From IMG/VR virus record IMGVR_UViG_3300035661_000242, positions 1 through 31,032 of that record: a DNA stretch of 31,032 nt. The stretch is one strand, 5' to 3'. This document shows positions 1,557 through 30,951 of this stretch, one piece after another. Numbering within the stretch: position 1 is the first letter of the stretch; every line of letters begins with the position of its first letter. The translations under genes were made by a program, and so were the position numbers. A model generated the notes under the pieces. That model made no database searches and had not been told where the DNA came from. It was given only the letters and a program-made list of their open reading frames with translations. The stretch comes from a virus.

Positions 1557-1557
1557 T

Positions 1558-2860: not shown

Positions 2861-2871
2861 GTATTAGGATT
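2843..2871. terminator. Bidirectional hairpin terminator shared by two convergent genes
   Basis: The 13-base arms AATCCTAATACCT and AGGTATTAGGATT are perfect complements around a three-base loop. A T-run follows on the plus strand (TTTTTT). On the minus strand the tail is weaker (CTTTATTTTAT). The stop codons of both flanking genes lie at the loop. Confidence 0.85.
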
Positions 2872-7485: not shown

Positions 7486-8928
7486 TTATACCTGTTCTAT
7501 AAATGATAAAACTTCATAAGCTATTTCTTCTATTCTTTCAATTGGTTCTTTATATTCGATAATTCCATTTTTATAATCATCATACGATAACCATTTATTA
7601 TAATAGATCGTAGAAATAAAGAAAAGAATTGGATCTTTATTAACAAGAAATTTATTAGAAACAAATTTATAACGATTAAAGATTTTGTTATATATCTTAG
7701 TACTTATTAATTTTTCAATAAAATCTTTTTTCATTATAAGTTTTTTATTTTTGAAATCACCAAATGCCATCAAATATTTAGCAAGAATATTTAGTTTATT
7801 TTTTTCTAAAACCTTTTTTAAAGCAATTAATAATACTTTAAATTCTTTTCTATTTAATTCATAATTATCATAAGTTCCGAAATATTTAGAGTAATATAAA
7901 AGAACTAAATTTACTTGCATTTTATTTAATTCGATTTCATCATAATATTCTAATTCTTCTTTAGATATATTTATATCAAACGTTTTCAAAAAATTCTTTA
8001 TTTCATTTATTTTATTAACTTCTTGAATACATTTCAAACCTTCATCTTCTCTACTTATTTCAATCTTTAATTTATCCATCGAAGTAATACCATCGTTTTC
8101 TTCATCTAATCTTGGATTAATCGGATTATATTCAATACTAATATTTCCTCTAAAAATAAATTTTATTTGATTTTGTAACGCAGCATGTATATAACTAATA
8201 GGATTCTTATCAACTTCTAATTTATACAAAATTAAAACTATAGTAGTATCATAAATATTAAGAGTTTCACTTTCAGGATCTTTTCCTATATTTTCTAAAT
8301 AACTCCATATCACTCTATCACTGAAAGAAGTACTTTTTACTCTTGATTCTACTAATTTGTATAATTTATTAGAAACTTTATGTTGATCATTTAATCCTAT
8401 TATTAATTTAAAAATATCAAGATAAAGTATTCTTAAATCTTTAAATTTATCCTTATGAATTGAATAAAAATCACTTATCAAAGGAATACAAAATTTCATT
8501 ATAAAACTAATTTTTTGAAGATCTTCACAATGTTCTTTTAAAAGTATTAATTGAGAATTAATTTTTTTATCGTTATTTTCTTTATGAATATAGTATTTTT
8601 CTATATATTCATTTACTATACTTTTAAAAGAAGGAAGTTCTAATAACTTTTTAATTTCTTGAGCAAATGTTATCGTATCATAAACACTTTCATCAAAGGT
8701 ATATTTAATCTTAATAGTATAAAATTGTTCAATGATATCAGCTATTTCTTCATAAGACCTTTCAAAAATATAAGTATACGTTTTTTTAATTAAATTAAAA
8801 ACATTGGTAAATCGTTGAGCACTTAAATCAAAATATTTTAATTGCTCATCAATTTCTAAATCTTCAATATCTAATTCAATAATTTTGCTGTTTAAAAGTT
8901 TCATTTTTAATTTTAGAGTTTCACCCAT
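7486..8928 (-). CDS. Unknown helical protein upstream of primase
   Basis: The protein has 480 residues, is mostly helical and has no membrane segment. The ATG at 8928 has an AGAGGGA site. One segment at about residues 243-262 (PISYIHAALQNQIKFIFRGN), followed by an acidic linker, has the look of the helix that ends region 2 of sigma factors (a pattern like SYL..AI.N.I..+LR). No clear region-4 helix-turn-helix is seen. The best description is an unknown replication- or transcription-linked protein, with the sigma-like idea kept as a weak hypothesis. Its stop is one base from the primase ATG. Confidence 0.7.
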   Translation of the reverse strand: MGETLKLKMKLLNSKIIELDIEDLEIDEQLKYFDLSAQRFTNVFNLIKKTYTYIFERSYEEIADIIEQFYTIKIKYTFDESVYDTITFAQEIKKLLELPSFKSIVNEYIEKYYIHKENNDKKINSQLILLKEHCEDLQKISFIMKFCIPLISDFYSIHKDKFKDLRILYLDIFKLIIGLNDQHKVSNKLYKLVESRVKSTSFSDRVIWSYLENIGKDPESETLNIYDTTIVLILYKLEVDKNPISYIHAALQNQIKFIFRGNISIEYNPINPRLDEENDGITSMDKLKIEISREDEGLKCIQEVNKINEIKNFLKTFDINISKEELEYYDEIELNKMQVNLVLLYYSKYFGTYDNYELNRKEFKVLLIALKKVLEKNKLNILAKYLMAFGDFKNKKLIMKKDFIEKLISTKIYNKIFNRYKFVSNKFLVNKDPILFFISTIYYNKWLSYDDYKNGIIEYKEPIERIEEIAYEVLSFIEQV

Positions 8929-9886: not shown

Positions 9887-9913
9887 GGTATCAAGAATTA
9901 AATTCTTGATACC
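9887..9913 (-). terminator. Terminator of the baseplate-chaperonin operon
   Basis: The 13-base arms GGTATCAAGAATT and AATTCTTGATACC are perfect complements. On the minus strand the hairpin is followed by TTTTTATTATT. It begins ten bases after the chaperonin stop codon. Confidence 0.9.
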
Positions 9914-9922
9914 ATAAATATA

Positions 9923-14457: not shown

Positions 14458-16350
14458 TTATTTAAATACTTCCATTATTTTTTCATAGACTATATCATTT
14501 ATTTTTTTATTATTTTGATATATATTGTCTTTTATTTGTTCGAAATATTCTTTATTTCCATTATAAATAATAACTTTTTTATTTTCAGAAAACAAAGATG
14601 AAAGTTTAACATATAAAAATCCTTCTGGATCATCTTTTAATGAAGAAATGAATAAAATTATTCTTTCTGTTTCATCTTCTATTGAATGAACTTTTATTAA
14701 ACTTTCATTATTGAATTTAATTTTATCAACTAATTCTTCTTTTAATTTTTTAGACATAGTTTGTGTTTCTAAAAGTTTTTGTAAATCAAACAAATAATAA
14801 TTTTCTTTTATAAAATCTTCTGTAAGTAAATTTTTATGATTTTTTAAGAAAAACGTTCTAGTAATTGGTTCTATTTTTGTAATTCCTTTATTTATTAAAT
14901 TTACATCTAATTTTCCTTTTTCATTAATAAAAATATATTTAGAAAAAATTATGTTTAAACAGGTTTCTGAATAAATCAAGTCACGTATTATGTCAACAGG
15001 AAGATAAGAAACATAGTTAAGAAGGATTATTAATTCATTGTAATCCAATAATTTAATTAATTTTCTTATATATTTTAAAGAAACTACATTTTTTATAAAT
15101 AAATTAGCTAAAATATTTTTGTTAATAATTTCTTTTCGTTTTTCTATGGTAATATTTTCTTCCTTCTCAATTTTCAGCATCTTATTTTCAAGATACCATT
15201 CTACTACATTTTTATAATTAGAAAGAAAATTAATAGCATCATTTTCTAAAAATGTATTATAATATTTTTTCATCAAATAAAGAGCTAAATCTTCACTAAC
15301 TTTTATATCATACAAACTGAATTCAGTAATCAAAGTTTTAAATTCTTGTTCAGGATTTTTTTCCATTAATTCAATAAGTTTTTCAATATCATTTTTTTGT
15401 TCTAAATTTAATTTTTTATACATATTTAAATCTATCTTTTTAAATTCAAGATAACAATTTGAATTAATAAAGAAATAATTTTTGTCTAATATTTTGTTAA
15501 TTAATTCAAAAGTAAAAACTTTATTTTTAAACAATGTTTTTCTAAATTCTTCTTCAGTAAATATTATATCAAAAACATGATCTAACTTTAATTTTTGATA
15601 ATCATCAAAAAATTTTATTATTTCTTCTTCGGTAAATTCAGTAATTTTAATTAAATATTTTATAATTATTTTATTATAGTTAATTTCTTTTAATAAAAAA
15701 ACTAAATTATAAAATGTTTTAAAATTAATCGTAAATTCTTCTAATTTTTCTAATTGTTGAAAGATTTTTTTGTTTATAAATGAATGTGACAGATATTTTT
15801 TCTTTTCTTCATAATCAAATTTTTCACTTATTAATAAATGAATAAAGTTAGCATATTCTTGATACTGAACATAGAAATCTATAGGAAGAACTTCGATTGG
15901 TTCTTGATAAGTAGTTATTGTATTAATTATTTTATTAAAAAATTCATAATCTTTAGTTAATGAAACAATCTTTTTAATTATTTCATAATTTAATTTTTGA
16001 TATTTACATAATGAAATTATAGTATTAACAAAATGATTATTTTTTTCTTTAAAATTATAAAAAATAAAATCAACAATTTCCCATTTTAATTCATCATTAA
16101 AAATAAATTTTTCATTTAACAATAAAATAATTTTTTTTAATAAGTCATATTCTGAAACATTTTCCTTTTTATATAAAAAAAGTTCAGATAATAATGCAGA
16201 AAATCTTATAGTATTATTCTTTAATATTTTTTGTATATCTTTATTAAAAAAATATTTTCTATCATGTGAAAATAAAATTTCATTAATTATTAAACTTTGA
16301 GCTTTTTCATTTAAATTATTTCCAATAAATTTTCTTTCTAGGGTTTTCAT
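14458..16350 (-). CDS. Large all-helical protein, unknown
   Basis: The protein has 630 residues and is dense in Leu, Ile, Lys, Asn and Phe. The pattern of many short helices (for example LLSELFLYKKENVSEYDLLKKI) suggests a HEAT- or ARM-like solenoid, but no repeat consensus is clear. There is no signal or membrane segment. The ATG at 16350 follows AAGGAG. It is the last gene of the minus-strand group that holds the beta-prime N-terminal gene, separated from the others by a hairpin at 16391-16415. A transcription role is only a guess from position. Confidence 0.75.
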   Translation of the reverse strand: MKTLERKFIGNNLNEKAQSLIINEILFSHDRKYFFNKDIQKILKNNTIRFSALLSELFLYKKENVSEYDLLKKIILLLNEKFIFNDELKWEIVDFIFYNFKEKNNHFVNTIISLCKYQKLNYEIIKKIVSLTKDYEFFNKIINTITTYQEPIEVLPIDFYVQYQEYANFIHLLISEKFDYEEKKKYLSHSFINKKIFQQLEKLEEFTINFKTFYNLVFLLKEINYNKIIIKYLIKITEFTEEEIIKFFDDYQKLKLDHVFDIIFTEEEFRKTLFKNKVFTFELINKILDKNYFFINSNCYLEFKKIDLNMYKKLNLEQKNDIEKLIELMEKNPEQEFKTLITEFSLYDIKVSEDLALYLMKKYYNTFLENDAINFLSNYKNVVEWYLENKMLKIEKEENITIEKRKEIINKNILANLFIKNVVSLKYIRKLIKLLDYNELIILLNYVSYLPVDIIRDLIYSETCLNIIFSKYIFINEKGKLDVNLINKGITKIEPITRTFFLKNHKNLLTEDFIKENYYLFDLQKLLETQTMSKKLKEELVDKIKFNNESLIKVHSIEDETERIILFISSLKDDPEGFLYVKLSSLFSENKKVIIYNGNKEYFEQIKDNIYQNNKKINDIVYEKIMEVFK

Positions 16351-16390
16351 TTTGTACTCCTTATTTGTTTATTAATTTATTTATTAACAA

Positions 16391-16415
16391 GGGAAGAGGC
16401 TATCTGCCTCTTTCC
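16391..16415 (-). terminator. Probable terminator between minus-strand genes
   Basis: The arms GGGAAGAGGC and GCCTCTTTCC pair with one G-T pair around a five-base loop. On the minus strand the following bases are T-rich but broken (TTGTTAATAAAT), so termination may be partial and allow some read-through into the 630-residue gene. Confidence 0.6.
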
Positions 16416-16417
16416 TT

Positions 16418-16738
16418 TTAATTATTTTTTAATAAATATAATAGAAGCTCTTTTTTAGCTTCTTTTAACGTTTTGTAATTTTCTTTAATAAGAACATAAT
16501 CATACTTCATCTTATCATTAGACTTAACAAATTTATAGATATCATATTGTTTAGTTTTATCATAAAAAATCTTTCCTTCTACATATTCTAAAAAATCTAT
16601 AGCGCTATCCCCTTCTACTTTACTTTTCTTTATTATTAAGCAATCAATAATATTATTTGCAGCATATTTCCATATGACTGCATAATTTTCTGGAATAATA
16701 CTTTCATTTCCAGACGATGGTATTTCTACGCCATACAT
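16418..16738 (-). CDS. Small unknown protein after the beta-prime N-terminal gene
   Basis: The gene encodes 106 residues, with an ATG at 16738 and AAGGAG before it. It has an N-terminal GNESIIPENYAVIWKYAANN region and a C-terminal helix with repeated Lys/Leu. There is no recognised motif. It starts 13 bases after the RNA polymerase gene and so is cotranscribed with it. It could be a small polymerase-associated factor, though nothing in the sequence shows this. Confidence 0.7.
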   Translation of the reverse strand: MYGVEIPSSGNESIIPENYAVIWKYAANNIIDCLIIKKSKVEGDSAIDFLEYVEGKIFYDKTKQYDIYKFVKSNDKMKYDYVLIKENYKTLKEAKKELLLYLLKNN

Positions 16739-16751
16739 AACAAATACTCCT

Positions 16752-18077
16752 TTATTCTATTAAACGATAAAATCCTAATACATAATCCCTGTCCACTGAA
16801 AATTGTTTTTCAAAATAACCATCATTAGTACTAATGATTAAGTTTTGTGGACTTAATGGTTTAAAGAAATTTTTTAATTCTTCATCTATTAATAATACTA
16901 TATTTAAACAATCACCATCATAATCACCACCAAGTGGTTTTAATATATCATTATGAATTTCTGCTGTAAAATCATTTATATCACTTTTTATTTCAGCTAT
17001 TTCCAAATATAAAATACTTCCAAAATTAATAGTTGGATTTCGATTTAATAAAATAGCTGGCTTGCTTTCTTTTATAATTAAACATAAAATATCGTAGATT
17101 TCTTGATTAAAACTATAAATAGCTTCATACCATAATTTTAAAGCTTCTATATAGGAAATATTCTTAGTTTTTACCAATAAATTTATTATATGGAACTTAA
17201 ATAATTCTATACCTCCTAAGTATGGAAGACGTATTTGATTTGTTTTATAAAATGGGGGTAATGGAATTATAACGGAACGTGAACTAAAATTAATTCTATA
17301 ACCTAATAGATTGTTTCTAATTATTCCTGTTTTTTGACTTATACTATCAATTATATAATCAATTAATTTTTCATATTGTTTTTGTATTTGTAATAATAAA
17401 GGATTGATAAATCTTTCTTCTTTATTTTCTTTTATTATCCTTAAATTTCCAAGTATCATAGTATAAAACTTACTTACTTCATCATATATCATCTTATTTC
17501 CAGTTACTACTATTGCAGGACGTAACCTTGAATTGAATACTATTATTTTATTAGTAAATATATTATCAAAATTTTCTTCTATAATTTCATAGTATTCTTT
17601 TTTCTTTGTTTCATAAAACTCTTTTTTAAAGTAATTATAAATCTCCTTAAACTTTCTTTTAAATTCTATTAAACCTATTCCTATATATGAAACTTTAGTT
17701 TTCTTATAAATCTCATTTCCCTCTTCATCAATATTCATTTCATAATCAATAATCTTATTTAATGGCATTACTTTAGAAAGAAAATTAATAAATATCGGTT
17801 GTATTACATAGTAATCTTCTAAATAAATCCATCCTTTTCTTTCTATACTTTGTTTACCAATTACTGGAGTATTACAATCTGGACAAATTTCTCCTTCTTT
17901 AAATTTTCCTTTTAAATTTCCACATCTACATTCATAAATATAGCTTTTTAAATTGCCAAATATCCTTGGAGAAAATATTCCGTCATCTGTAAATTCTCCT
18001 TTTTCGATATGTGAAGGATTATCGATGATTAGAGTTTGATCAAAAATTTCATCGAAATTAAAGAATTTAAGTCTCAT
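16752..18077 (-). CDS. rpoC: RNA polymerase beta-prime, N-terminal part
   Basis: The 441-residue protein matches the first third of bacterial beta-prime. The N-terminal zinc finger is C50, C52, C65 and C68, with exactly the C-x-C, 12, C-x2-C spacing of bacterial RpoC. Later comes NNLLGYRINFSSRSVIIP (the RQNLLGKRVDYSGRSVI region) and LLNRNPTINFGSILYL (the LNRAPTLHR region). The catalytic motif is GGDYDGD at about 383-389: all three Mg-binding Asp are kept, while the usual Asn-Ala before them is Gly-Gly. The protein ends at SVDRDYVLGFYRLIE, equivalent to the region just after the active site of RpoC near residue 510. The ATG at 18077 has AAGGGGG. The rest of beta-prime is in other genes; the C-terminal part is upstream at 20711-19476. 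Confidence 0.93.
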   Translation of the reverse strand: MRLKFFNFDEIFDQTLIIDNPSHIEKGEFTDDGIFSPRIFGNLKSYIYECRCGNLKGKFKEGEICPDCNTPVIGKQSIERKGWIYLEDYYVIQPIFINFLSKVMPLNKIIDYEMNIDEEGNEIYKKTKVSYIGIGLIEFKRKFKEIYNYFKKEFYETKKKEYYEIIEENFDNIFTNKIIVFNSRLRPAIVVTGNKMIYDEVSKFYTMILGNLRIIKENKEERFINPLLLQIQKQYEKLIDYIIDSISQKTGIIRNNLLGYRINFSSRSVIIPLPPFYKTNQIRLPYLGGIELFKFHIINLLVKTKNISYIEALKLWYEAIYSFNQEIYDILCLIIKESKPAILLNRNPTINFGSILYLEIAEIKSDINDFTAEIHNDILKPLGGDYDGDCLNIVLLIDEELKNFFKPLSPQNLIISTNDGYFEKQFSVDRDYVLGFYRLIE

Positions 18078-18096
18078 TACGCCCCCTTGTTTTATT

Positions 18097-18537
18097 TTAA
18101 TTAAAAATTAATTTTTCAACCTTAAAAATAGTTTCATCATCCGCAGTATTTTTAACAACAAAACTAATCAAGAAATCTTTTAAATTTTCCATAATAGATA
18201 TAGTAAAATCTTCAATATAAATTTCGTCAGACTTTTTTGTTAATACTTCATTGACTAAATTTTTAATTTTTATATAATTATATTTTTTATCATCTAAAAT
18301 AATATGGCTACTAACTAATAAAACGTCTAACGATTTTTTATTTATTGAAAAATCTTCAATTTTTAATTTATTAATATTTAATAAATCGAAAATAGATAAT
18401 ATTGTCATTAAATCATCAAATCTTTCAATATCTTTAATATTATTATTATCTTTTTTTATTGTCATTACAACTTCATTGGAAATTTTAAAATCATTAGAAT
18501 TATTATGTGTTAATTCTACTATATCGTACTTTTTCAT
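18097..18537 (-). CDS. Unknown protein ahead of the beta-prime N-terminal gene
   Basis: The 146-residue protein has a clear start at 18537 after AAGGA. It is rich in Ile, Asp, Lys and Asn. Several short strands and helices suggest a compact domain, possibly with a beta-sheet at the C-terminus (IFKVEKLIFN). No family is recognised. It is 19 bases from the polymerase gene and is probably cotranscribed with it. Confidence 0.68.
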   Translation of the reverse strand: MKKYDIVELTHNNSNDFKISNEVVMTIKKDNNNIKDIERFDDLMTILSIFDLLNINKLKIEDFSINKKSLDVLLVSSHIILDDKKYNYIKIKNLVNEVLTKKSDEIYIEDFTISIMENLKDFLISFVVKNTADDETIFKVEKLIFN

Positions 18538-18589
18538 TTTAATTTTCCTTATTTTATTACTTTAATATAATATATATTTATTTAAATTA

Positions 18590-19243
18590 TTAATTTGACT
18601 TAATTTCTTTCTTTTTTCTTTTAAATTCTATAGCTTTTCTTTTAAGATAAGTTCCTGCTAAATATAGGATAGCTTCTATTACATCCATTTCATTTTTATG
18701 ATTATCTAAATACATGTGTAATTGAAGGAAAGCAAAGAAAGGTTTCATATTGTAGGCTTTATTAGTTCCTTGTACTTCTTTATAAATTTTTATACTACAT
18801 AAATATAAGTTTCCAAACGGAATAACTTTAGCGTTATCTATAAATTTTTCAATTTTTACAGTGTCTTTTAATTCCCTTGAAGCAGCATCTAATATTACGT
18901 CTAAATAATTCATATTTGTTTTATTAGCTTTCTTTATTACATAATTATAAGCAAAATAATTCTTATTAATTTTTATTCCTTCAGCTAAAGTAATTGAAAA
19001 AGGAAATTCTTTTTCTTCTTTATTAGATGTGCTTACACTCGCTCCTAATTCTTTTAATTGATGCGTTTCTTCTTCCCTAATAATATTTTCCAATTTAATT
19101 AATTCTCTGTTCAAATTACTAATTTCTTTTTTTCGTTTATTTTTAGCACTTTCAGTTTTTAAATTATTCATTTCTTCTTCCAATTTTTTGATTTTCTTAA
19201 TAATTTCTTGTTTTTGGTCTAATAATTGTTTTTTGTTTTCCAT
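18590..19243 (-). CDS. Coiled-coil protein, unknown
   Basis: I place the start at the ATG at 19243, because CGGAG lies 8-10 bases before it; an upstream TTG at 19318 would read through the terminator hairpin and is rejected. The protein then has 217 residues. Residues 5-70 form a strong coiled coil of Lys/Glu/Leu heptads, and a separate domain follows (FPFSITLAEGIKINKNYFAYNY) with a helical C-terminus that is basic. The function is unknown. It is the first gene after the terminator at 19285-19310, in the group with the beta-prime N-terminal gene. Confidence 0.72.
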   Translation of the reverse strand: MENKKQLLDQKQEIIKKIKKLEEEMNNLKTESAKNKRKKEISNLNRELIKLENIIREEETHQLKELGASVSTSNKEEKEFPFSITLAEGIKINKNYFAYNYVIKKANKTNMNYLDVILDAASRELKDTVKIEKFIDNAKVIPFGNLYLCSIKIYKEVQGTNKAYNMKPFFAFLQLHMYLDNHKNEMDVIEAILYLAGTYLKRKAIEFKRKKKEIKSN

Positions 19244-19284
19244 AAAATTTCTCCGTTTTTTGTTGTTAATAAAAAAAATAAAAC

Positions 19285-19310
19285 CCGAATACCTTAGGGG
19301 AGGTATTCGG
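19285..19310 (-). terminator. Strong terminator of the beta-prime C-terminal operon
   Basis: The arms CCGAATACCT and AGGTATTCGG are perfect over ten bases with a six-base loop. On the minus strand the hairpin is followed by GTTTTATTTTTTTT, a textbook intrinsic terminator. It is unusual in being 165 bases after the beta-prime C-terminal stop codon, leaving a long 3' untranslated region. Confidence 0.92.
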
Positions 19311-19475
19311 ACTAACAAGAGGGACTAATGATGAATTTAAGAGGGGTAAATAATATTTATTGAAGTTATACATGCCTAAAAAATTTTATATTTATATGTT
19401 TATGAATTTTTAAAATTTAAAAATTTAAGTCTATAAAACGCCTTTCATTTAAATAATATACATTTAATTGTAATT
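19311..19475 (-). other. Long non-coding gap between beta-prime C-terminal gene and its terminator
   Basis: The gap is very AT-rich, holds no convincing ORF, and is one of the two longest gaps in the window. A 35-codon minus-strand frame opens at 19373 but has no ribosome binding site and runs through the terminator. A run of A/T with internal self-complementarity (AAATTTTTAAATTTTAAAAATT on the minus strand, split here for description) may fold. This may be the untranslated 3' end, or a promoter and small RNA ending at the terminator. Confidence 0.4.
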
Positions 19476-20711
19476 TTATATTTCAACTATCGATTTATTC
19501 AAATCAATGGCACCTACCTTTACACTTGTGTCATGAAACTTCTTCATAGAAAGATTCAATATAGCAGTTCCTACTGTATTAAATAATAAACCAACATTTT
19601 TAATTTCCAATCTATAAAAAAGATCTCCTGCACATATATTACATAATTTATCACTTATGCAATATAAAGGTAAACGCATTTGAACTACTTTTCCAATGTA
19701 TTTTTTGATAGTTTCGGAATCTAACAAAACTTTTTTTCCATTTTCTATTATATATTGATACATAAATTTTTCAATATTGTCTTTTTCTATTAGGATAGGA
19801 ACTGTTTTTTTCGTGCCACAATCACTTCCTTTTTCATCAAGGGTTAAAGATTGAAAGGTAGCAGAAAGTAATTTAGATGTATATCCTCCTTTTTGTGTTT
19901 CTACTCCTTTGGAAACAAAGGAATATATAGCAAGATCATTAAAGAAAGGCATTTCTTCTATAGCTATTCCATCTACTAAATTACTTTTACATATTTTAAC
20001 TCTTTTCTCACCATCAGCAGAAAACATCGCTCCTCTCATTATAGAAGAAGATTTATAATTATTGCTAAACGATCCTCTAGCTCCACTTTCATATATATCC
20101 ATAATAGGATCATCTTTTAATTTTTCTTTTGCTATATCAATTAATTCTTTTTCAATTAAAGAAACGGTTCCTATATCACTTTTTTCAATAGCATCTTTAT
20201 GTTTTTCAAAAAGTTCTTCTTTTCTTTTTTCTACTTCTGGAACTGGAATGGTTCCTTTTAATGTTAAACTTCTTCCAAGAAAATTTACTACAAAATAACC
20301 TAAATTATCTCTTCTATTTATATATTCGATATACTCATCGCTGGTTATTTTATTTTCTATTAATGCTTTTGACATATTAGCATCTATTTCAGAAATCTTC
20401 TTTTCATTAAGAGTTTCATTAACATATCCGTTTATTCTAAAAAACGTTGGATTATCCCTATCATTCATATAAAGATTGAAAATGTATCTTCCTACTGTAG
20501 TAAGAATATATTCATCTTCTTTTGCATTAAAATCAAGCATTTTTTTAAATTTTAATAAATTTAATCTAAACGTTTGATTAGGTTCAAATTTAGCAGGTTT
20601 TTTATATTTATTAGCAAAAAGTTCTTTTAAAAGCTCTCTTGTTAAATCAATATCTTCTAAAGAAAGAAGATATTTAACTTCTTCTTCAGTACATTGTTTA
20701 GGTGGTTTCAT
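19476..20711 (-). CDS. rpoC: RNA polymerase beta-prime, C-terminal part ending in the trigger loop
   Basis: The 411-residue protein (ATG at 20711; AGGAGG ends about 11 bases before it, and a GTG at 20723 overlaps that site) matches the middle of bacterial beta-prime. In order: TTVGRYIFN (71-79), the F-loop region SGARGSFSNNYKSSSIMRG (209-227), a shortened bridge helix with KGGYTSKLLSATFQ (274-287), and DCGT with a zinc-ligand C298 joined by C351, C357 and C360 (CISDKLCNICAGDLF). The trigger-loop first helix follows, ending in LSMKKFH (387-393), with the catalytic Met and His kept. It ends about 18 residues later, so the second trigger-loop helix, jaw and C-terminal clamp parts of bacterial RpoC are not here. 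It follows the 202-residue structural gene by 18 bases. Confidence 0.92.
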   Translation of the reverse strand: MKPPKQCTEEEVKYLLSLEDIDLTRELLKELFANKYKKPAKFEPNQTFRLNLLKFKKMLDFNAKEDEYILTTVGRYIFNLYMNDRDNPTFFRINGYVNETLNEKKISEIDANMSKALIENKITSDEYIEYINRRDNLGYFVVNFLGRSLTLKGTIPVPEVEKRKEELFEKHKDAIEKSDIGTVSLIEKELIDIAKEKLKDDPIMDIYESGARGSFSNNYKSSSIMRGAMFSADGEKRVKICKSNLVDGIAIEEMPFFNDLAIYSFVSKGVETQKGGYTSKLLSATFQSLTLDEKGSDCGTKKTVPILIEKDNIEKFMYQYIIENGKKVLLDSETIKKYIGKVVQMRLPLYCISDKLCNICAGDLFYRLEIKNVGLLFNTVGTAILNLSMKKFHDTSVKVGAIDLNKSIVEI

Positions 20712-20729
20712 CTGTTTTTCCACCTCCTT

Positions 20730-21338
20730 TTAAGCGTAAATATAATATAAAATTTGTAAAGATTTTGTTCCTAAAAGAAATTCAGAAGCAAATGTTATCC
20801 TTGAAAAAAGTTCGTCATCTACTACCTGTCCAGCTTCATTTATCCTTCCATAATAAAATCCTATTTCACTTATAGCTTCTCCTCTAGCATCTGTTTCATC
20901 TATAGATGCTGAATATATTATAGAAATATTATTAGTAGATTTATTTAAATCTGCCCAACGATCTCCATTTGTTAAAGTATCAAAAAATTTTCCATAAAAA
21001 TTTTTATCTACAGAATCATATTTACAATATCTTCCGTTTTCATTATTATTAGTAAAAGCAACTCTAGTAACTTTCATTGTTTCCATATCATTTGAAGAAA
21101 CAGGTGGTATAGGAACATTATGTTGTCCGCTTAAAATTCCTCCGTTACCTATAGAAAAATATAATAATTTTCTTCCTGAACCTGCATTAATATTATCTTC
21201 TGTAAGAAAACTAGAAATACTTTCTAAAGCAAAAATACGTCCTGAAGTAACTACAAGATTTTCTTTTTCCCACAAGAATTTTTTAGTTTTTTTATCATAA
21301 ACTCTAATCTTATTTTTTAAATTTAAATTACTTTCCAT
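20730..21338 (-). CDS. Small tail or baseplate structural protein, unassigned
   Basis: The protein has 202 residues and looks all-beta. Segments are NLVVTSGRIFALESI (28-42), LLYFSIGNGG (59-68), and at the end ISEIGFYYGRINEAGQ then LFSRITFASEFLL. This arrangement (opening GR helix, FGIGNGG strand, then ISEIGLY and an LFSR.TF strand) is common in phage baseplate or fibre-related proteins, but I cannot name the family. The ATG at 21338 has TGGAGG. It lies just after the giant structural gene and the hairpin at 21368-21396. Confidence 0.72.
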   Translation of the reverse strand: MESNLNLKNKIRVYDKKTKKFLWEKENLVVTSGRIFALESISSFLTEDNINAGSGRKLLYFSIGNGGILSGQHNVPIPPVSSNDMETMKVTRVAFTNNNENGRYCKYDSVDKNFYGKFFDTLTNGDRWADLNKSTNNISIIYSASIDETDARGEAISEIGFYYGRINEAGQVVDDELFSRITFASEFLLGTKSLQILYYIYA

Positions 21339-21367
21339 TATTTAAAATCCTCCACATTTTTTAATAA

Positions 21368-21396
21368 AAAGAAACAGGATATAATCCTGTCTCTTT
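21368..21396 (-). terminator. Terminator after the giant structural gene
   Basis: The arms AAAGAAACAGGAT and ATCCTGTCTCTTT pair with one G-T pair and a three-base loop. On the minus strand TTTTTATTAA follows. It stands five bases from the stop of the giant gene and may be attenuating, since the next gene is only 30 bases downstream. Confidence 0.8.
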
Positions 21397-21400
21397 ATTT

Positions 21401-24400
21401 TTAATCAATAATTATTCCTTTTTCTTTTCTTATAATAACAAATTCGTCTCTAAAATTTAAATTGGAATTTCTATCAATTTGATTTTCTATTTCTTGATAA
21501 TCTATAGGAAGGCTAAGATTTTTTTCTTGCATTTTTATAAGCATTCTTTCATATTCAGAACGATTATTATTAAAATAATCTCTAAATACATTCTTTCCTT
21601 TATTAGTAAAATTGTCTATCATTTTTATATTGCCTTCTATAGGATTATTAGAAACTAAGATAGAAGTTCCACTTATTATTTTTGTAGAATAAAATTTAAA
21701 AATATCAAATATTTGTAATAAAATATCTTTAATTTTATCTACTAAAAATGAACCTTGTATTATATCATCATACTTATTATTATTTATATAATCTCTTAAT
21801 AAATCTGTTAAATAAATATAACGTTTTAATTTAAATTCTTTTAATTTTTCTACATTATTTGCATAATCTATATTTTCTTCAGAATCAAATGTAGAAAATA
21901 AGAAATTAACATATTCTTGATAATTTTGTTTTGAACTTAAATAATCATAAATATTAATATTTTCTCCAAAAGGTTCATTCTCTATTACTCTTCTATATCT
22001 ATTCTTATATTCTTCTAAAAATACTCTATATTCAAAAATAGATTCAATTTTAAGACTTTCTTTTTCAATATTTCTTTTTTGTTCAAATAAATTTTCTAAC
22101 CAATCAAAAAATATTTTTATTTCATCAATTTCAAATAAATTTTCACTTAATTCAGGAATTTTGTCATATTTAACTACTGTTGTTTCATTATTATCTAATT
22201 TTTTTGGAAAATATGCAGTAGGTCTTAAATCATCTATAAATTCTTCATGCATATAATAATCATTTTGTCCAGGATTTAAAGTAAATATTAAATTATTTTT
22301 TAAATTTAAATCATGTCTATCATTATTTCCTTTAAAATAATGATTTAATAATACATTTATTCCTAATAAAATATCGATAAATTCTACAGGAGTTGGATTA
22401 TTTTCATTTTCTATAGAAACAAAATTTATTATTGAATCAAATATTGGAAATTGTACTGTTCTGTTAGGATATTTTAATTTTAATCTTATTAAAGTATCGA
22501 ATAAAAATGCAAATTCATAACACCTTTCAATATTATATATTTTATTATTTATTGAAATATATTTAGTTAATGCGTAGTTAAAATCTTGACTTTTTACTTC
22601 ATCTTCAGTTGCTTTCCAATATTTATCAGAAATAGTAATTCTTCCAAATGGAATAAAATCATAAAATTTTAAAGATTTAAAAATTTTTTCAATATTATTC
22701 TCAAATAAAGGAATTGAAACAAAATATAATGATTTTCCTTCATTATAATCTGGATTTAATTCTAATATTTTATTTATTAAACAAAGTTTTACAAATTCTT
22801 CATGTTCATAAGAAATAGAATCATAATCAATTACTGAAATTTGAAGTCTTCGTACAATTAATTTATAATAATTATAAATATTTATTTTTTCTTCAGTAAG
22901 AGAAATTTCTTGATTTTTAAAATCTAAAGAAACATATTCTAAAGCTTTATTTAACTTTTCAGAATTATTTTCTAAAAAGTTATTAATAAGAATATTAACT
23001 AAATTTTTCTTATATATATTAATTTCATCTAAATTAAAATAATCTTTTTGTATTTCTGTTAATTTAAAATCATTAAAAATATATTCTTTTTTATCTTCAA
23101 AAAGAAAACATTCTTCTGTATATTCTTTAGTTTTAATTAAAGCTATTATTTCTAATAATTTTATTAATATATCATTATCTATTGTTTCTTTTTCTTGAGG
23201 TGTTACAGTAAATGAATATATTCTTTCTCTAATATTAACTTGATTATCATTTTTTATTAAATTATATAATTTTTGTTTATATAAATCAACTAAAAATTCA
23301 ATATAATTTTTCTTATAATCATAATTAAGATTTTCTAATTCATTTTTTAAATCCTGTATATATTTACTATAAAAAAGATTTTTCATAATGTCTAATTTTA
23401 AAAATTCATTTTCTATTTCAGCTAAAGCAATTGAAATTTTAAGTTCATTATTATTTTTGTCTGTTAGTTTATCCAATGTTAAAGGATTTTCTATTGTTTT
23501 TCCTTTAATATTATAACTTCTAATAATAATATTTCCTTCAATAAAATCTTCTTTATATTCTTCATTAGGAATTAATTTAAATTTAAAATTAGTAGCTTTA
23601 GTTATAGTTAAAGATTCATCAAAATAATCAAAGTTTTCTAATGAAACAATAGGATCTATCGGAAGATCATTAGATTCAGATTTTGTATATATAATCGAAT
23701 AATATTTTTTATCTATTTTATCTGGAACTAAAGCCATTATATCAACAGATTCACTATTTGGATTTACATTTTTAGGACTAATTAAAACATCTGGAAGTTT
23801 TATTCTTAAATCTTTTTTGTATATATCGCTTATAGGAAGTTCTTCAATATTTTTTTTTATAAATGCATATATACTTGTAGTTTTTTCTATACGTAAAGGT
23901 TCATCAATAATATATTTTTCCGAATAAAAATTTTGGTTATTTTTAATTTGTATTTTATAATTTTCATCACTTTTATTAGAATTTTTAATATATTCATCAT
24001 TTAAAATATAATAAATATCATATTCTCCATAATTTAATGAATAATTATACATTTTTATTAATTGAGAACCTGTATATACATTATTTAACAAACTTGATGA
24101 ACTATCAGCAATTGGTTTATTATCTGGTAATATATAAAGATTTTCATCATCTAATGAAGGAAAAGGAATTTCTGAATCTTTAAAACCATCGTTACGTATC
24201 TGATAATCATTTTTAATTTCTAGAACTGTATAAAAATTCTTTTCGTGTTCTCCTTTTTCTATTAAATCAAAACAAAAATAATAGTTTTTTCCATTAATTA
24301 CTTGAAGAGGTTCATTAGGTTCATTTTTACTTTGTCCTACTATAAATTTATTTTCATCTATAAGAAACATATTTCCTGTTTTTTCAATTTTTTGAGAAAC

Positions 24401-27400
24401 AATAAAAGGAAATTTAACATCTATTGTATCATAAAAACCACGTAAAGTATTAGGAAAATGACTTCCAATAGGAATATAACAATTTGTAGCAGAATTCATA
24501 TCGTCAGGATCTTTATTGTATTTAATAGTATTTATAAAAGGATTAGGAAAACCAAGTATTTGATTATTATTTCTAATATTTTCAAAAGTTGGATTTATTG
24601 TTTTTTTATTTGGAGAATCTGAACTAGGAAAATTATAAATATTTGTTATAATACAATAATAAATATCATCATTATCAGTTCTTTTATCTTTATCAATTCT
24701 TAAATAATTATATCCATCAAATTCTTTTTTATCAATTAATATTTCAAATATGTCACTATCATTTATTTTTTTCTCAAGATCTAATGCTACATATTTAAAT
24801 TGATAAATTCCATATAATTTAGTTTCTAATTGATTCTCATCTTTATCCATGTGTATTTCTCTATTTACTATAATAGGACCTGAAACCTTAACCCATCCAT
24901 CTTTATCAGCATTTAATGATAAATTAGAAAAATTTTCATTAAGTGTTCTATTGATTTTATGTTTTTCATTTTCTGTATTTAATGGAATATTATTTAAATT
25001 TTCATCTTTAACTACTCTATAACATAAAACCATTTGAGAACCATCAAAAAGAGTTCCAGTTTTAATATCTTCAAATAAATATATTTTTTCAGTCGTTATA
25101 AAATTTACAGGAAGCGCTTTATGTCCACTCTCATGATTGGAATCAATTTCTACTTTTTTCAAAACATATTTTCTTTTAATTAATATTCTAGGATTTTCAC
25201 ATTTTGTTACGATTACAATTTTTTTACTTGTTATAATATCTGAAAGAAGTTTATCATTATTAGAAAAAATTCCATATTTTATTATATAAATTTTTTTATC
25301 TTCATTAAAAATTAATGGTTTTGTTTTATCATAATCTATAAAATCATGTTTTTTAACAATTTCATTTTTATCATTAAGTTCAAATAAAGAATATTTAATT
25401 TTTTTATTAATTCCATTATTAATAAATTCAAATTCTGCTTTAACTTCAGTATTAAAATAATATTTATCGCCTATTAATGTTGGGTAAATTAATTTATTAC
25501 TTGTTTTTTCTTTAAATATTAATTCAGGTGGAGATATTTTAGATTCTTTTTCAATTATGTTTATATATTTATCTATTTGATTACTAATTTGATAAGAAGA
25601 AAGTAAATTATAAGTTATAGCAGAAATGTGATATTTTCCAGGAGTTAGATTAATTGATTGAGTAAATAAAGTCCATTGACTATTACTATCAAAAAAAGTA
25701 TTATCAAAATTAAAAGAAATTAACTTTTCATTTCCTGTTTCTTCATCTATAGAATATAATCTATAAAAAATTCTTTCATAATCTATATATTGATCTGTAG
25801 AACTAAAATCTAAATTTAATTTAAATAGATTTGTAACTATTTCGTTATTAGTTGGAAGATTGATTACCGGAGGATTTATTTCAAATTGTTCTAATATAAA
25901 AAATCTATATGTATAAATTTTGTATGTTGTTATTTTATTATTTTTTCCATTTTCTATAGATTGTTCATCATTATAATTTTCTGTAGAAATAAAACATGTT
26001 ATTTGATAAAAATCTTTACCAGTAATTTTAAATTCATAAAAATCTTTTTGCTGCCCTGAAAGATCTTTAGGATGAATCTTAATATATTTTGAAAATTCTA
26101 TCTTAGATGGTAATAGATTCGTTCCTCCTCCACCAGTGTTAGGATTCGTTCCTCCTCCACCAGTGTTAGGATTCGTTCCTCCTCCACCAGTGTTAGGATT
26201 CGTTCCTCCTGTACCTGTTCCTCCAGTATTATCATAATCATTATTAGGAGGAATTACTGTATATTCTAATTTTACTGAAGGAGTTAATGATAATTTATCT
26301 ATTTTAAAATAAATATAATTATATTGGCTTACAGATGAATAATTTAATTTTATAGAACATTCATTTTCATAAATCTGATCATAATTTTGTTCATCAATAG
26401 GAATAATGTCATTATTAAAATGTATATATACATTTTCATTATTTTGATTATTAATAATTTTTGTATAACTATGTTTAATAAAAGGATATTCTTTATAATT
26501 AATTGAAAAATTACTTTTATTTTCATCAGAATCATCTATTCCATATTTTATTCCAGGTGTTACTCCATCTTTATTTGCATTTTGTTTTATTATATCTTGA
26601 TTTAATATGTTTTGTTTTTTATCATTTAATTCTTTTTCTTTTTTTTGCATTTCTTCTTTTATAACATCTTTGTATTTTTCTTTAATTCTTTCTAATAAAT
26701 TATTTTTTATAATTGTAAATTTTTCATCTTCTATTTTATAATTAATCTCCAAATTAGTACTTCTTTCACCATATTTATTAGCAGCTTTTATTTCAGCAGT
26801 TTGTTCATCTACTTTAATAAAATCTTCAAATTCATATTTTGAATATAATACTATAACTTCATTTATTTCTTGAGTTTCTTCTATTTTTTCTTTATAAGCT
26901 TCTATTAATTTATTATATAAATAATTTTTTATTTCTTCATATGGATAAGGAAAAAGTTCATCAGTAAAAATAGGTTCTAAACTTTTATCAATAGCATCTT
27001 TTAATGGTTTAATTTCAGTTCTTTGAAAATCTTTATAAATCATTAAATATTTTTCTACTAATTCATTGGAAATTCTTTCTATAGAACTTGTTAAATCTAT
27101 TTTTGATTGACTTTGTAAATATTCTTGATCTTGAAAAATATTAAAAGAAGAATTATTTAAATTATTTGAAATCATTTGAAGACGCATTTCAACAAAATAA
27201 TCTTTTAAAAATTCAGTAAAATTAAATTCTTTATTAGCATTTAATAAAAAAGCTAATGCTGTTTGTTCATTTAATCCTTCAAGAAAATTATTTAAAAATA
27301 AATTAAATTCATCATTATAAAATTTAGATAAATCATTTTTAATTACGTCTTCACTAAGAAGATTATTTTCATAAATATTTTCATAAATATTTTTTAATTC

Positions 27401-28768
27401 TTCAAATGTTTTTTCTTCTAATAATTTTATAATTCTTTCTTCAATTATTTTTTTTACTATTTTAATATATTCAGACAAATAAATGTTTTTATTAAATTTT
27501 TTAAAAGAAAGTAAAATTTCTTCTAATTCTTCTTGATTTTTTTCTTCTAATTCTTCAGGAGAATAAATTTTATATTTTTCATTTATTATCATTTTTGTTT
27601 CAGGATCTTTATAATAATCTGATTTATTTCTTTTAACTAATATATATTTTTTTATTTCTAATCTATCAATATCAAAAATATTTAATATATCTTGAAAAAC
27701 TTCATTAGTTCCTTTTTTTCTAAAAAATTTATCTATATTTTCAATTAATTTTAAAGTATAATCATCTGGAATTTCATCTAAGTTAAATATTCCATATGAA
27801 GCTAATAAATTTTTAATTTGTTTTCTATTATATTTTTCAAATTTAATAAAATCTTTTCCTAAAAATCTTTTTATAGAAAATAAAACTATCATAAATGTAA
27901 CAAAATCAAAATATCTTTCATAAGTATAACCAAAAAATCTATTATAAATATTTCTCATAAAATATTCTTTAGTACTTTCAACTTCTTTTAAAAAATTATT
28001 TAAAATTTTTTCAGGGAGTATAACATTATCACTATATTTATCTTTATTATAATAAAGCATTACAGAAAATTCTTTTTTTTCTCTACATCTTAAATAAAGT
28101 TCTGTTAATTCTTCTGTTGATATCATTATATTATATTTATTAATAAAAGTTTGTACAGTATCTATTAAATAATAATTTTCTTCTTTATAAAAATTTACTA
28201 TTTTTTTATTAATTAAAAATTCAATTGGATAAGCTTTTCTTTTTTCATTATCAATTAAAATTATATTTTTTGAATAACTTTTTGCTACTAGATTAGTGTA
28301 TACAAAAATTATTTCAAAATTTTCCCATAATAATCTTTTTATTTGTTCTTTTTGAATTTCTATTGGATATTCTTTATTTATAGTATTATTTTTTTTATTT
28401 AAAAAATCATTTAAAAGTAAATAATAATCTCTGTTATCTTTTACATAAATTTTTGTAACATCTATTAATTCACTATCAAAAAGTATATCTGTTTCAGAGT
28501 TAAAATCTTCACCTGAAAAAATTTTTAAATTTTTATATTCATTAAAAATAATTCCATTTTCTATTTGACTTTGAAAATATAATAATTTTTCTTCTTCAAA
28601 AGGTTTATATTCATTATTTAAACATTTAATAGCTTTTTGAGATTCTGTAGCCGAACGTAAAGTTTCATATGATTCTAGTAAATCATTATTTTTGAAAACA
28701 AATGTTTTAGATAATTCTATTAAAGCAGAAAAAAGTGACATTTCAGTATTAAAATTTAGTATATTCAT
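21401..28768 (-). CDS. Giant baseplate/tail structural protein, 2455 residues
   Basis: The ATG at 28768 has AAGGAG. The N-terminal 850 residues are mostly helical; residues 350-390 (FFRKKGTNEVFQDILNIFDI and following YILVKR) look like the helical block found in large phage baseplate proteins, but I cannot tie it to a named T4 gene. A repeated GGGGTNPNT linker follows at about 853-885. The middle third is a string of beta-sandwich domains: an Ig/FN3-like one at about 960-1070 (PPVINLPTNNEIV...), and a chitobiase-C-like one at about 1578-1640. The C-terminal 550 residues (from about 1900) are helical again, with the segment RRLQISVIDYDSISYEHEEF. Such a layout fits a baseplate or tail-fibre protein that reaches the cell surface. 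There is no signal peptide. It is the first gene of its operon and fills a quarter of the window. Confidence 0.82.
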   Translation of the reverse strand: MNILNFNTEMSLFSALIELSKTFVFKNNDLLESYETLRSATESQKAIKCLNNEYKPFEEEKLLYFQSQIENGIIFNEYKNLKIFSGEDFNSETDILFDSELIDVTKIYVKDNRDYYLLLNDFLNKKNNTINKEYPIEIQKEQIKRLLWENFEIIFVYTNLVAKSYSKNIILIDNEKRKAYPIEFLINKKIVNFYKEENYYLIDTVQTFINKYNIMISTEELTELYLRCREKKEFSVMLYYNKDKYSDNVILPEKILNNFLKEVESTKEYFMRNIYNRFFGYTYERYFDFVTFMIVLFSIKRFLGKDFIKFEKYNRKQIKNLLASYGIFNLDEIPDDYTLKLIENIDKFFRKKGTNEVFQDILNIFDIDRLEIKKYILVKRNKSDYYKDPETKMIINEKYKIYSPEELEEKNQEELEEILLSFKKFNKNIYLSEYIKIVKKIIEERIIKLLEEKTFEELKNIYENIYENNLLSEDVIKNDLSKFYNDEFNLFLNNFLEGLNEQTALAFLLNANKEFNFTEFLKDYFVEMRLQMISNNLNNSSFNIFQDQEYLQSQSKIDLTSSIERISNELVEKYLMIYKDFQRTEIKPLKDAIDKSLEPIFTDELFPYPYEEIKNYLYNKLIEAYKEKIEETQEINEVIVLYSKYEFEDFIKVDEQTAEIKAANKYGERSTNLEINYKIEDEKFTIIKNNLLERIKEKYKDVIKEEMQKKEKELNDKKQNILNQDIIKQNANKDGVTPGIKYGIDDSDENKSNFSINYKEYPFIKHSYTKIINNQNNENVYIHFNNDIIPIDEQNYDQIYENECSIKLNYSSVSQYNYIYFKIDKLSLTPSVKLEYTVIPPNNDYDNTGGTGTGGTNPNTGGGGTNPNTGGGGTNPNTGGGGTNLLPSKIEFSKYIKIHPKDLSGQQKDFYEFKITGKDFYQITCFISTENYNDEQSIENGKNNKITTYKIYTYRFFILEQFEINPPVINLPTNNEIVTNLFKLNLDFSSTDQYIDYERIFYRLYSIDEETGNEKLISFNFDNTFFDSNSQWTLFTQSINLTPGKYHISAITYNLLSSYQISNQIDKYINIIEKESKISPPELIFKEKTSNKLIYPTLIGDKYYFNTEVKAEFEFINNGINKKIKYSLFELNDKNEIVKKHDFIDYDKTKPLIFNEDKKIYIIKYGIFSNNDKLLSDIITSKKIVIVTKCENPRILIKRKYVLKKVEIDSNHESGHKALPVNFITTEKIYLFEDIKTGTLFDGSQMVLCYRVVKDENLNNIPLNTENEKHKINRTLNENFSNLSLNADKDGWVKVSGPIIVNREIHMDKDENQLETKLYGIYQFKYVALDLEKKINDSDIFEILIDKKEFDGYNYLRIDKDKRTDNDDIYYCIITNIYNFPSSDSPNKKTINPTFENIRNNNQILGFPNPFINTIKYNKDPDDMNSATNCYIPIGSHFPNTLRGFYDTIDVKFPFIVSQKIEKTGNMFLIDENKFIVGQSKNEPNEPLQVINGKNYYFCFDLIEKGEHEKNFYTVLEIKNDYQIRNDGFKDSEIPFPSLDDENLYILPDNKPIADSSSSLLNNVYTGSQLIKMYNYSLNYGEYDIYYILNDEYIKNSNKSDENYKIQIKNNQNFYSEKYIIDEPLRIEKTTSIYAFIKKNIEELPISDIYKKDLRIKLPDVLISPKNVNPNSESVDIMALVPDKIDKKYYSIIYTKSESNDLPIDPIVSLENFDYFDESLTITKATNFKFKLIPNEEYKEDFIEGNIIIRSYNIKGKTIENPLTLDKLTDKNNNELKISIALAEIENEFLKLDIMKNLFYSKYIQDLKNELENLNYDYKKNYIEFLVDLYKQKLYNLIKNDNQVNIRERIYSFTVTPQEKETIDNDILIKLLEIIALIKTKEYTEECFLFEDKKEYIFNDFKLTEIQKDYFNLDEINIYKKNLVNILINNFLENNSEKLNKALEYVSLDFKNQEISLTEEKINIYNYYKLIVRRLQISVIDYDSISYEHEEFVKLCLINKILELNPDYNEGKSLYFVSIPLFENNIEKIFKSLKFYDFIPFGRITISDKYWKATEDEVKSQDFNYALTKYISINNKIYNIERCYEFAFLFDTLIRLKLKYPNRTVQFPIFDSIINFVSIENENNPTPVEFIDILLGINVLLNHYFKGNNDRHDLNLKNNLIFTLNPGQNDYYMHEEFIDDLRPTAYFPKKLDNNETTVVKYDKIPELSENLFEIDEIKIFFDWLENLFEQKRNIEKESLKIESIFEYRVFLEEYKNRYRRVIENEPFGENINIYDYLSSKQNYQEYVNFLFSTFDSEENIDYANNVEKLKEFKLKRYIYLTDLLRDYINNNKYDDIIQGSFLVDKIKDILLQIFDIFKFYSTKIISGTSILVSNNPIEGNIKMIDNFTNKGKNVFRDYFNNNRSEYERMLIKMQEKNLSLPIDYQEIENQIDRNSNLNFRDEFVIIRKEKGIIID
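26116..26210 (-). repeat. 27-bp tandem repeat encoding a GGGGTNPNT linker
   Basis: Three identical 27-bp units start at 26116, 26143 and 26170 and a partial fourth starts at 26197. Each encodes nine residues of the type TNPNTGGGG. The repeat lies inside the giant structural gene at about residues 853-885 and is a flexible hinge between its helical head and beta domains. Confidence 0.95.
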
Positions 28769-28892: not shown

Positions 28893-29020
28893 CTAAGACT
28901 TCTGCAGACTTATTTTATATAAGTCCGAATGATTTGGTTAAAAATAACCTTGCTAAAGGATGCATTAATAAATTTAAGAGGCAACCTTTAGAAAATCAAA
29001 TTCATTTTTTATTTTCTTAG
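28874..29020 (+). pseudogene. Possible phage gene start cut by the IS607 insertion
   Basis: A plus-strand frame of 48 codons begins MKQLLISKTSADLF, with AAGGA nine bases before the ATG at 28874. The good ribosome binding site and divergent position relative to the giant gene suggest that a real phage gene started here, and that from about the tenth codon on the frame reads into the IS607 end and antisense to tnpB. The rest of such a gene would lie right of the window. It could equally be a chance frame. Confidence 0.3.
28893..28991 (-). ncRNA. Probable omega-RNA (TnpB guide RNA scaffold)
   Basis: TnpB nucleases use an RNA made from the 3' end of tnpB and the element end. Here this region folds well: CTAAAGG/CCTTTAG (28953-28959 with 28985-28991, overlapping the tnpB stop), GGTTA/TAACC with an AAAA loop (28936-28949), and GACTTAT/ATAAGTC (28907-28925). 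The guide would be the DNA just outside the element, that is, left of about 28893, next to the giant gene's leader. The scaffold location is established for the family; the exact ends here are inference. Confidence 0.45.
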
Positions 29021-30362: not shown

Positions 30363-30951
30363 TTTTTATTGCATCCTTAATTTTATTTTTATAATTTCTT
30401 AAACCATATAATCTCGCAGAAAATACATGAATAATTGTCATTAAATCAGTTATTAATTCATCTTCTGGAGAGGTTTTTTCTAAATTTATTATAGTTAATT
30501 TTACATTATATTTTTCAAATAAAAATTCCAATAATTCAAATCCAAATCTAACTAATCTATCTTTATATGTTATAATAATTTCTTCAATTTCATTATTTAA
30601 TACCATTTCTAACATTTTTAAAAAACCTTTACGTCTATAATTTATTCCAGAACCAATATCTTTTATATACTCATCTATTATTTTTCCAGAGTTTATTGCA
30701 TAAGTTTGTATATATTCTAGTTGATTTTCTAATTCTTTCTTTTGAGAATTTGATGATACTCTATAATATGCTATAGTTTTTCTATTTCTTTCTTTTTCAA
30801 TATTTAAATATTTTAAAACATCTTTTTTAAAATAATATTTTCTACCATTTTTCCTATAGGGGATTAATTGACCTCTTTCTTCTAATCTAAATAAAGTTCT
30901 TTGGCTAATTTTAAGAAATTCACAGACTTCTTTAGACTTCATTATTTCCAT
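30352..30951 (-). CDS. tnpA: IS607-family serine recombinase TnpA
   Basis: The 199-residue protein has a MerR-like helix-turn-helix at residues 4-50 (SKEVCEFLKISQRTLFRLEERG, with the wing RKNGRKYYF) and a resolvase-type catalytic domain after it. The nucleophile is S66 in AYYRVSSNSQ; D131, R132 and R135 lie in TYKDRLVRFGFELLE, which is the conserved DRL.RFG motif. This HTH-first order is typical of IS607 transposases and differs from ordinary resolvases. The ATG at 30951 has AAAGGAG. It catalyses excision and insertion through a circular form, with no target-site duplication. It appears intact. Confidence 0.95.
   Translation of the reverse strand: MEIMKSKEVCEFLKISQRTLFRLEERGQLIPYRKNGRKYYFKKDVLKYLNIEKERNRKTIAYYRVSSNSQKKELENQLEYIQTYAINSGKIIDEYIKDIGSGINYRRKGFLKMLEMVLNNEIEEIIITYKDRLVRFGFELLEFLFEKYNVKLTIINLEKTSPEDELITDLMTIIHVFSARLYGLRNYKNKIKDAIKNGN

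Follow-up and report, generated by a model that had tools for sequence, protein, structure and literature searches.

Jumbo phages related to AR9 and phiKZ carry a virion RNA polymerase (vRNAP), which is packaged in the head, injected and used to transcribe the early genes, and a non-virion RNA polymerase (nvRNAP), which is the late-gene polymerase. Both RNA polymerases (RNAPs) are multisubunit enzymes, and phages of this kind carry the two (PMC7598289). The vRNAP of AR9 is described as gp189/gp078 together with gp145/gp264/gp125, all products of late genes, and gp270 as the product of a continuously expressed nvRNAP gene (PMC5312081). A three-part vRNAP beta' is already published (SPN3US gp42/gp244, AR9 gp264/gp125): the missing part, from about Thermus beta' 1260-1524, was assigned to SPN3US gp244 (Thomas 2016, PMC5105663), and the description of the enzyme as "at least five polypeptides" is repeated in a 2026 review (PMC13282480). 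Here we analyse a stretch of 31,032 bases (the window), which is the entire IMG/VR virus record IMGVR_UViG_3300035661_000242 and a fragment of a larger phage genome, and in which two neighbouring minus-strand genes code for parts of beta' (Table 1).

The two genes very likely encode subunits of two different RNAPs, one being the N-terminal part of the nvRNAP beta' (nvRNAP beta'N) and the other the middle chain of a vRNAP beta' (Mid-beta') that is made of three chains. The vRNAP beta' consists of N-beta', with the active-site Mg, of Mid-beta', with the bridge helix and a first trigger helix bearing the catalytic-type His, and of C-beta'. We further propose, from profile comparisons and structural models, that two chains together complete the trigger loop in the vRNAPs of AR9- and phiKZ-type phages (assembly in trans): Mid-beta' would end with the first trigger helix, and C-beta' would open with the insertion domain and the second trigger helix; we put the probability of this at roughly three in four (0.74).

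The Mid-beta' open reading frame (ORF), for which the first-pass annotation used the alternative in-frame ATG at 20711, belongs with SPN3US gp42 and AR9 gp264 rather than with nvRNAP beta'C. It matches phrog_2962, the SPN3US gp42 family, at E 1.3e-73 versus 6e-15 for phrog_3015, the nvRNAP beta'C family of AR9 gp154, and its identity is 42-44% to AR9 gp264 over ~410 columns versus 23% to gp154 over 241 columns. Sequence family, length, first trigger helix and a stop just after that helix are all shared with AR9 gp264, SPN3US gp42 and phiKZ gp80 (for SPN3US, the names gp42 and gp244 were assigned by length, 431 and 240 aa, and by homology, as the tags in that record are numbered otherwise). An AlphaFold2 (AF2) model built from 17 sequences has a mean predicted local distance difference test score (pLDDT) of 80 and aligns to beta' chains from after the DPBB domain to the trigger loop, the 50 matches listed all being of beta' type (Z 11-14). 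DSSP assigns to the model a long helix at residues 255-290, the predicted bridge helix, and a helix at 377-395, the predicted first trigger helix; K394, F396 and H397 are invariant in 17 of 17 aligned Mid-beta' sequences, and from about residue 400 the tail of the model falls below pLDDT 50. A second zinc site is formed by C302, C355, C361 and C364, invariant in a 9-sequence alignment; with 17 sequences, C302, C361 and C364 remain invariant and C355 nearly so. The bridge helix, second zinc site and first half of the trigger loop that the first-pass annotation had placed in this piece are all recovered.

That annotation also had the chain stop about 18 residues after the trigger-loop motif, and 18 is what we count after FH. 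It considered a breakpoint there remarkable if unshared; the breakpoint is in fact shared within a few residues. The trigger-loop His is followed by 16 residues in AR9, BpSp, Madawaska, Vibrio JHP1101, FLC9, SPN3US, phiKZ and a 234-kb IMG/VR relative of the window (G001), and by 21 in phiR1-37, while the annotated gene of Listeria phage LPJP1 reaches only to the motif itself, what looks like a second exon ~0.7 kb downstream carrying the chain to 16 residues after the His. With the window added, all 11 records have 16-21 residues, nine of them exactly 16 (one via the inferred exon), and at IMG/VR loci the chain stops 15-19 residues after the His in 25 of 25. When both sets are joined the stop lies at 15-21 in 36/36 records and loci, of which 34 are distinct, since AR9 (L123) and the 234-kb relative (L110) occur in both; L103-L106, L120-L122 and L117/L118/L124 are near-identical loci. 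The motif pattern missed L115 (KAKH; 18 residues) and the second exon of LPJP1 (16), which were counted by eye or from printed tails, and the Mid-beta' genes of L125 and LPJP1 are interrupted, their exon reading being inferred. The window protein is thus two residues longer past the His than AR9 gp264, SPN3US gp42 and phiKZ gp80, its chain end lying 2 residues from that of gp264, so that the refutation named in the first-pass annotation, known jumbo-phage subunits breaking at exactly the same residue, holds to within two residues. Judged by sequence, all relatives examined have a Mid-beta' that ends close to where the trigger-loop insertion is rooted.

Three records (L111:4333-7131, L115:4405-7230 and L010, Fusobacterium phage JD-Fnp4) have a vRNAP-type N-beta' (vN) and Mid-beta' in one ORF. 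These fusions stop 18, 18 and 22 residues after the His, as counted by eye or from printed tails, which indicates that the break in the trigger loop is present even where that between N-beta' and Mid-beta' is absent. At the 25 IMG/VR loci no fusion of Mid-beta' with C-beta' was seen, the C-beta' profile matching no ORF there at E <= 1e-3. In LPJP1 (L011, ~2598-3290) the apparent intron lies inside the trigger-loop codons themselves, between SM and KAFHD.

The first-pass annotation expected the remainder of the trigger loop to come from a third polypeptide or to be missing, and such a chain is known: C-beta' is the phrog_2926 family of SPN3US gp244, phiKZ gp176 and AR9 gp125. The suggested search for the last third of beta' succeeded in all eight larger records (AR9, BpSp, phiR1-37, LPJP1, Madawaska, G001, phiKZ and SPN3US, each at E 2e-33 or lower) and found no member in the 31-kb window, the only miss of nine records. 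The limit of this profile search was E <= 10, 1 of 14 control genomes also matched, and the Madawaska match contains one internal stop codon. AR9 g112 and its window ortholog at 1546-2271(+), beside the prohead protease, had been tried as C-beta' and were rejected, having no profile similarity to gp244/gp176.

Compared with nvRNAP beta'C by HHalign, C-beta' gives a score of 37.8 (E 4.3e-4) over 199 columns in register, starting within the insertion domain and running to the end, with AR9 gp125 35-246 on gp154 438-631; the maximum in 100 column shuffles was 19.4. The nvRNAP beta'C alignment used here kept the LPJP1 sequence (504 aa, start uncertain). An earlier one had included phiR1-37 g261, since rejected as a beta subunit, and gave E 0.72 and E 0.027. 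In the AF2 model of gp125, from 8 sequences, residues 1-110 form a beta domain at high confidence, and a helix at 117-128 follows at lower confidence. Among 996 PDB chains aligned, the four best matches of residues 1-113 are the trigger-loop insertion domains (TLIDs) of AR9 gp154 (406-507 or nearly so; Z 5.8, 5.4 and 5.2) and of phiKZ gp74 (400-530; Z 4.9), the next-best chain reaching Z 3.6. In the nvRNAPs of AR9 and phiKZ the same stretch of beta' as Mid-beta' is part of one chain, gp154 or gp74, that continues through the insertion domain, whereas Mid-beta' stops about where that domain begins. In 7s01_D the window Mid-beta' model covers residues 1-406 of gp154 (Z 12.2), and in many of the matches listed it aligns with E. 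coli beta' from 517 to ~932-961; the insertion is placed at 942-1129 in E. coli beta' (PMC7618050) and the TLID at 400-508 in gp154 (PMC9209446). Since C-beta' would begin with the equivalent of the gp154 TLID, the two chains appear to tile gp154, meeting at about residue 406. The models suggest that the two pieces join where the insertion sits; the course of the final Mid-beta' residues is less certain.

Several results weigh against a trigger loop completed by C-beta'. The HHalign probability is only 34%, and a non-equivalent control pair, nvRNAP beta'N against beta'C, scored 25.2, though over 13 columns. With a narrower C-beta' profile, the alignment began no earlier than the second trigger helix (E 0.0014); the tail-only alignment of that comparison lacks FLC9, which the motif pattern missed. 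A profile of just two sequences, gp244 and gp176, did not match the flawed nvRNAP beta'C alignment (E 0.72). The TLID Z scores of 4.9-5.8 are middling, below 8, and the gp125 model is weak past residue 110 (block pLDDT 39-76). Foldseek with the C-beta' model returned nothing at E <= 0.001 and no TLID among the 50 matches listed, and a phmmer search of PDB with the gp125 sequence gave no match up to E 10. The low-confidence tail of Mid-beta' was also aligned beyond the insertion, in 7s00_D (range to 532) and in several E. coli chains (ends at 1137-1158).

These tail alignments are compatible with a different arrangement, in which a short trigger loop made by Mid-beta' would work by itself and C-beta' would contribute the clamp and jaw only, its N-terminal beta domain lying elsewhere on the enzyme. 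A short helix is modelled in the tail at 408-411, at low confidence, and SPN3US gp244 was matched only to region a20 as described in Thomas 2016 (PMC5105663). However, the C-beta' profile stays in register through the TLID slot of nvRNAP beta'C, the first 113 residues of its model have TLIDs as their best matches among the 996 chains, and with the narrower profile gp125 115-132 (96-113 with a later start) align with the helix that follows the TLID in gp154. We therefore regard the short-loop arrangement as rather unlikely and favour completion of the trigger loop in trans.

The neighbouring gene is an nvRNAP gene. By phmmer its product matches the AR9 gp270 chains in PDB (7s01, E 1.2e-79; 7s00, 7um0 and 7um1, E 1.6e-79), with homology over residues 2-43 and 77-438, and like gp270 (nvRNAP beta'N, PDB 7s00) it has a DxDGD motif, here DYDGD, near the C end. 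Its E value is 4.9e-83 with phrog_2987 versus 1.4e-15 with phrog_2986, a comparison (280 versus 57 bits) that is independent of the profiles containing the window protein. Both the zinc finger and the Mg site claimed for it from the first pass are there, the former as a 4-Cys motif, CRCG...CPDC, at residues 50-68. The window copy retains this motif, which AR9 gp270 lacks (PMC7618050). In a simple pattern scan the motif was found in 12 of 20 nvRNAP beta'N sequences (the window, G001, phiKZ, FLC9 and eight IMG/VR loci) and was not seen in those of AR9, BpSp, LPJP1, Madawaska, phiR1-37, SPN3US and JHP1101; the 20 include AR9 in duplicate and the near-identical L117, L118 and L124. Such a patchy distribution may reflect repeated loss.

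The AR9 annotation itself calls gp264 a "virion RNAP subunit" and gp270 a "non-virion RNAP subunit". Of 14 control genomes, 10, 5 and 14 also have cellular RNAPs that are hit by the three subunit profiles used for identity. The 234-kb relative (locus L008) keeps Mid-beta' (9905-11194) and nvRNAP beta'N (15482-16897) on one strand in the same order as the window, and it also has a separate nvRNAP beta'C, a C-beta' and a second, vN-like N-beta' gene (weak matches). In the natural fusions, the N part scored 381, 359 and 149 bits against a vN profile, compared with 36 and 39 bits for two of them against an nvRNAP beta'N profile, the third having no match among those listed; this argues that the partner of Mid-beta' is a vRNAP-type N-beta'. 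For JD-Fnp4 the fusion was assessed from 844 aa of its ORF, and since the two profiles include the window protein (nvRNAP beta'N) and the G001 protein (vN), the scores of those two proteins are circular.

The first-pass annotation had instead read the two ORFs as a single beta' divided into an N-terminal and a C-terminal half, with the gene order reversed. They do share a strand, with 1.4 kb between them, and most beta' motifs are covered by the pair; profile searches of the 31-kb contig found neither a vN nor a C-beta' nor an nvRNAP beta'C of this phage, which tells against two enzymes. Yet the two ORFs match subunits of two different AR9 enzymes, the 234-kb relative with the same order has its own nvRNAP beta'C, C-beta' and (weakly matched) vN-like gene, and the fusions join Mid-beta' to vN, all of which makes a single split beta' very improbable. 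The reversed order is mere proximity of the genes of two enzymes. A match to nvRNAP beta'N lies within the fetched flank at 13 of 25 IMG/VR Mid-beta' loci, on the same strand in 9 and on the opposite strand in 4 (AR9 among them), a rough count because some flanks are short and some loci near-identical. That Mid-beta' was cut by an assembly error, frameshift or decay is hardly credible even in a contig that is a fragment, given the stop shared by all 36 records and loci and the presence in virions of SPN3US gp42, the gene for which has the same end point (PMC5105663).

The break in the trigger loop may be tolerated because inserted domains occur at the same place in other lineages (E. coli SI3, cyanobacterial Si3, the nvRNAP TLID), so that the tip of the loop would not need to be continuous. 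We know of no cellular multisubunit RNAP with a trigger loop broken between two chains; in cyanobacteria it lies on a single chain, unlike that proposed for the phage vRNAP. Cyanobacterial beta' has the Si3 insertion in its trigger loop (PMC10802570) and is divided into beta'1 and beta'2 after the DPBB domain, a split likewise described for both phage enzymes (PMC7598289). Searchable papers locate the vRNAP beta' break only by residue number and conserved-region labels: "trigger loop" is absent from the text of the gp244 papers PMC5105663, PMC5312081, PMC5694885 and PMC7598289, and "split trigger loop" was not found in the literature searched, which did not cover the AR9 genome paper (Lavysh 2016). 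What is new relative to print, so far as searched, is the suggestion from profiles and models that the trigger-loop insertion domain opens C-beta' and that the second trigger helix lies on the same chain. If true, this would offer an experiment of nature on how far the trigger loop depends on an unbroken chain. The late-made vRNAP of phiKZ must stay inactive until packaged (PMC5312081), and if a second chain completes the loop, the joining of C-beta' could switch the enzyme on, which would bear on this inactivity before packaging.

Table 1. Features of the window discussed in the text.
Feature	Coordinates	Strand	Basis
nvRNAP promoter-specificity subunit, AR9 gp226 ortholog	7486..8928	-	blastp E 2e-22; phrog_25005 E 2e-31
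nvRNAP beta'N, AR9 gp270 ortholog, zinc motif and DYDGD Mg site	16752..18077	-	441 aa; phmmer, phrog_2987, motifs
Intrinsic-terminator-like site downstream of Mid-beta'	19282..19313	-	13-bp stem, 6-nt loop, T tail
vRNAP Mid-beta', ortholog of AR9 gp264, SPN3US gp42, phiKZ gp80	19476..20723	-	415 aa from GTG; phrog_2962, identity, AF2 model
Predicted first trigger helix (residues 377-395), K394/F396/H397, 18-residue tail to chain end	19479..19595	-	alignment and DSSP on model
Virion protein, AR9 gp259 / phiR1-37 g233 ortholog	20730..21338	-	blastp E 8e-13 / 5e-18; phrog_19418 head and packaging
2455-aa protein sharing a segment with AR9 gp260 / phiR1-37 g234	21401..28768	-	blastp E 1e-10 / 2e-7

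Window proteins were compared by blast with AR9, part of phiR1-37 and parts of G001, and by these matches the phage is an AR9/PBS1-like jumbo phage. Counterparts were found of AR9 primase gp225, sigma-like gp226 (the nvRNAP specificity subunit), gp227, GroEL gp228, gp231, gp233, gp239, RNase H gp241, gp242, virion protein gp259, gp264 and gp270, as well as gp112, the prohead protease and a segment of gp260, the match to gp232 being weak (E 0.001). The window itself holds nothing unusual: its phage resembles AR9, and its subunits of both enzymes are normal ones. As lone queries against viral_contigs, the N piece found no contig and the Mid-beta' protein only one; AR9 gp125 alone found one contig, the AR9 genome itself, and phiKZ gp176 alone one that is 100% identical to the query.

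Mid-beta' lies 6 nt downstream of the gp259-type virion gene on the same strand, and the gene for the 2455-aa protein, next upstream, would belong to the same transcript; the order from virion genes to Mid-beta' matches phiR1-37 g234-g233-g231. The two unknown genes and the terminator noted between the ORFs from the first pass were both seen. The terminator-like site, read 19313-19282, between Mid-beta' and nvRNAP beta'N fits the late expression of gp264 versus the continuous expression of gp270 in AR9, and the region 16300-21500 holds seven such sites versus a mean of 0.9 in shuffles. The 2455-aa protein contains a GGGGTNPNT linker, and its match to AR9 gp260 (a 740-aa frame) is limited to ~110 residues.

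Elsewhere in the window, the genes at 717-2271(+) encode a prohead protease and, after it, a member of the phrog_18911 / DUF7484 virion protein family, a pair also close together in AR9 and Madawaska. The protein at 3532-4260(-) has two counterparts each in AR9 (the separate frames gp242 and gp261) and in phiR1-37, forming with them a small paralog family. A TnpB-like protein (OrfB_IS605, Cas12f1-like TNB domain) and a serine resolvase with a MerR-type helix-turn-helix occupy 28974-30951(-), a pair that we take to be of the IS607 type. At the other end, a repeat protein of head-to-tail MQDFFGDDNQ...QPQGNQPQQP units, overlapped by other ORFs, runs off the contig at 2-631(-).

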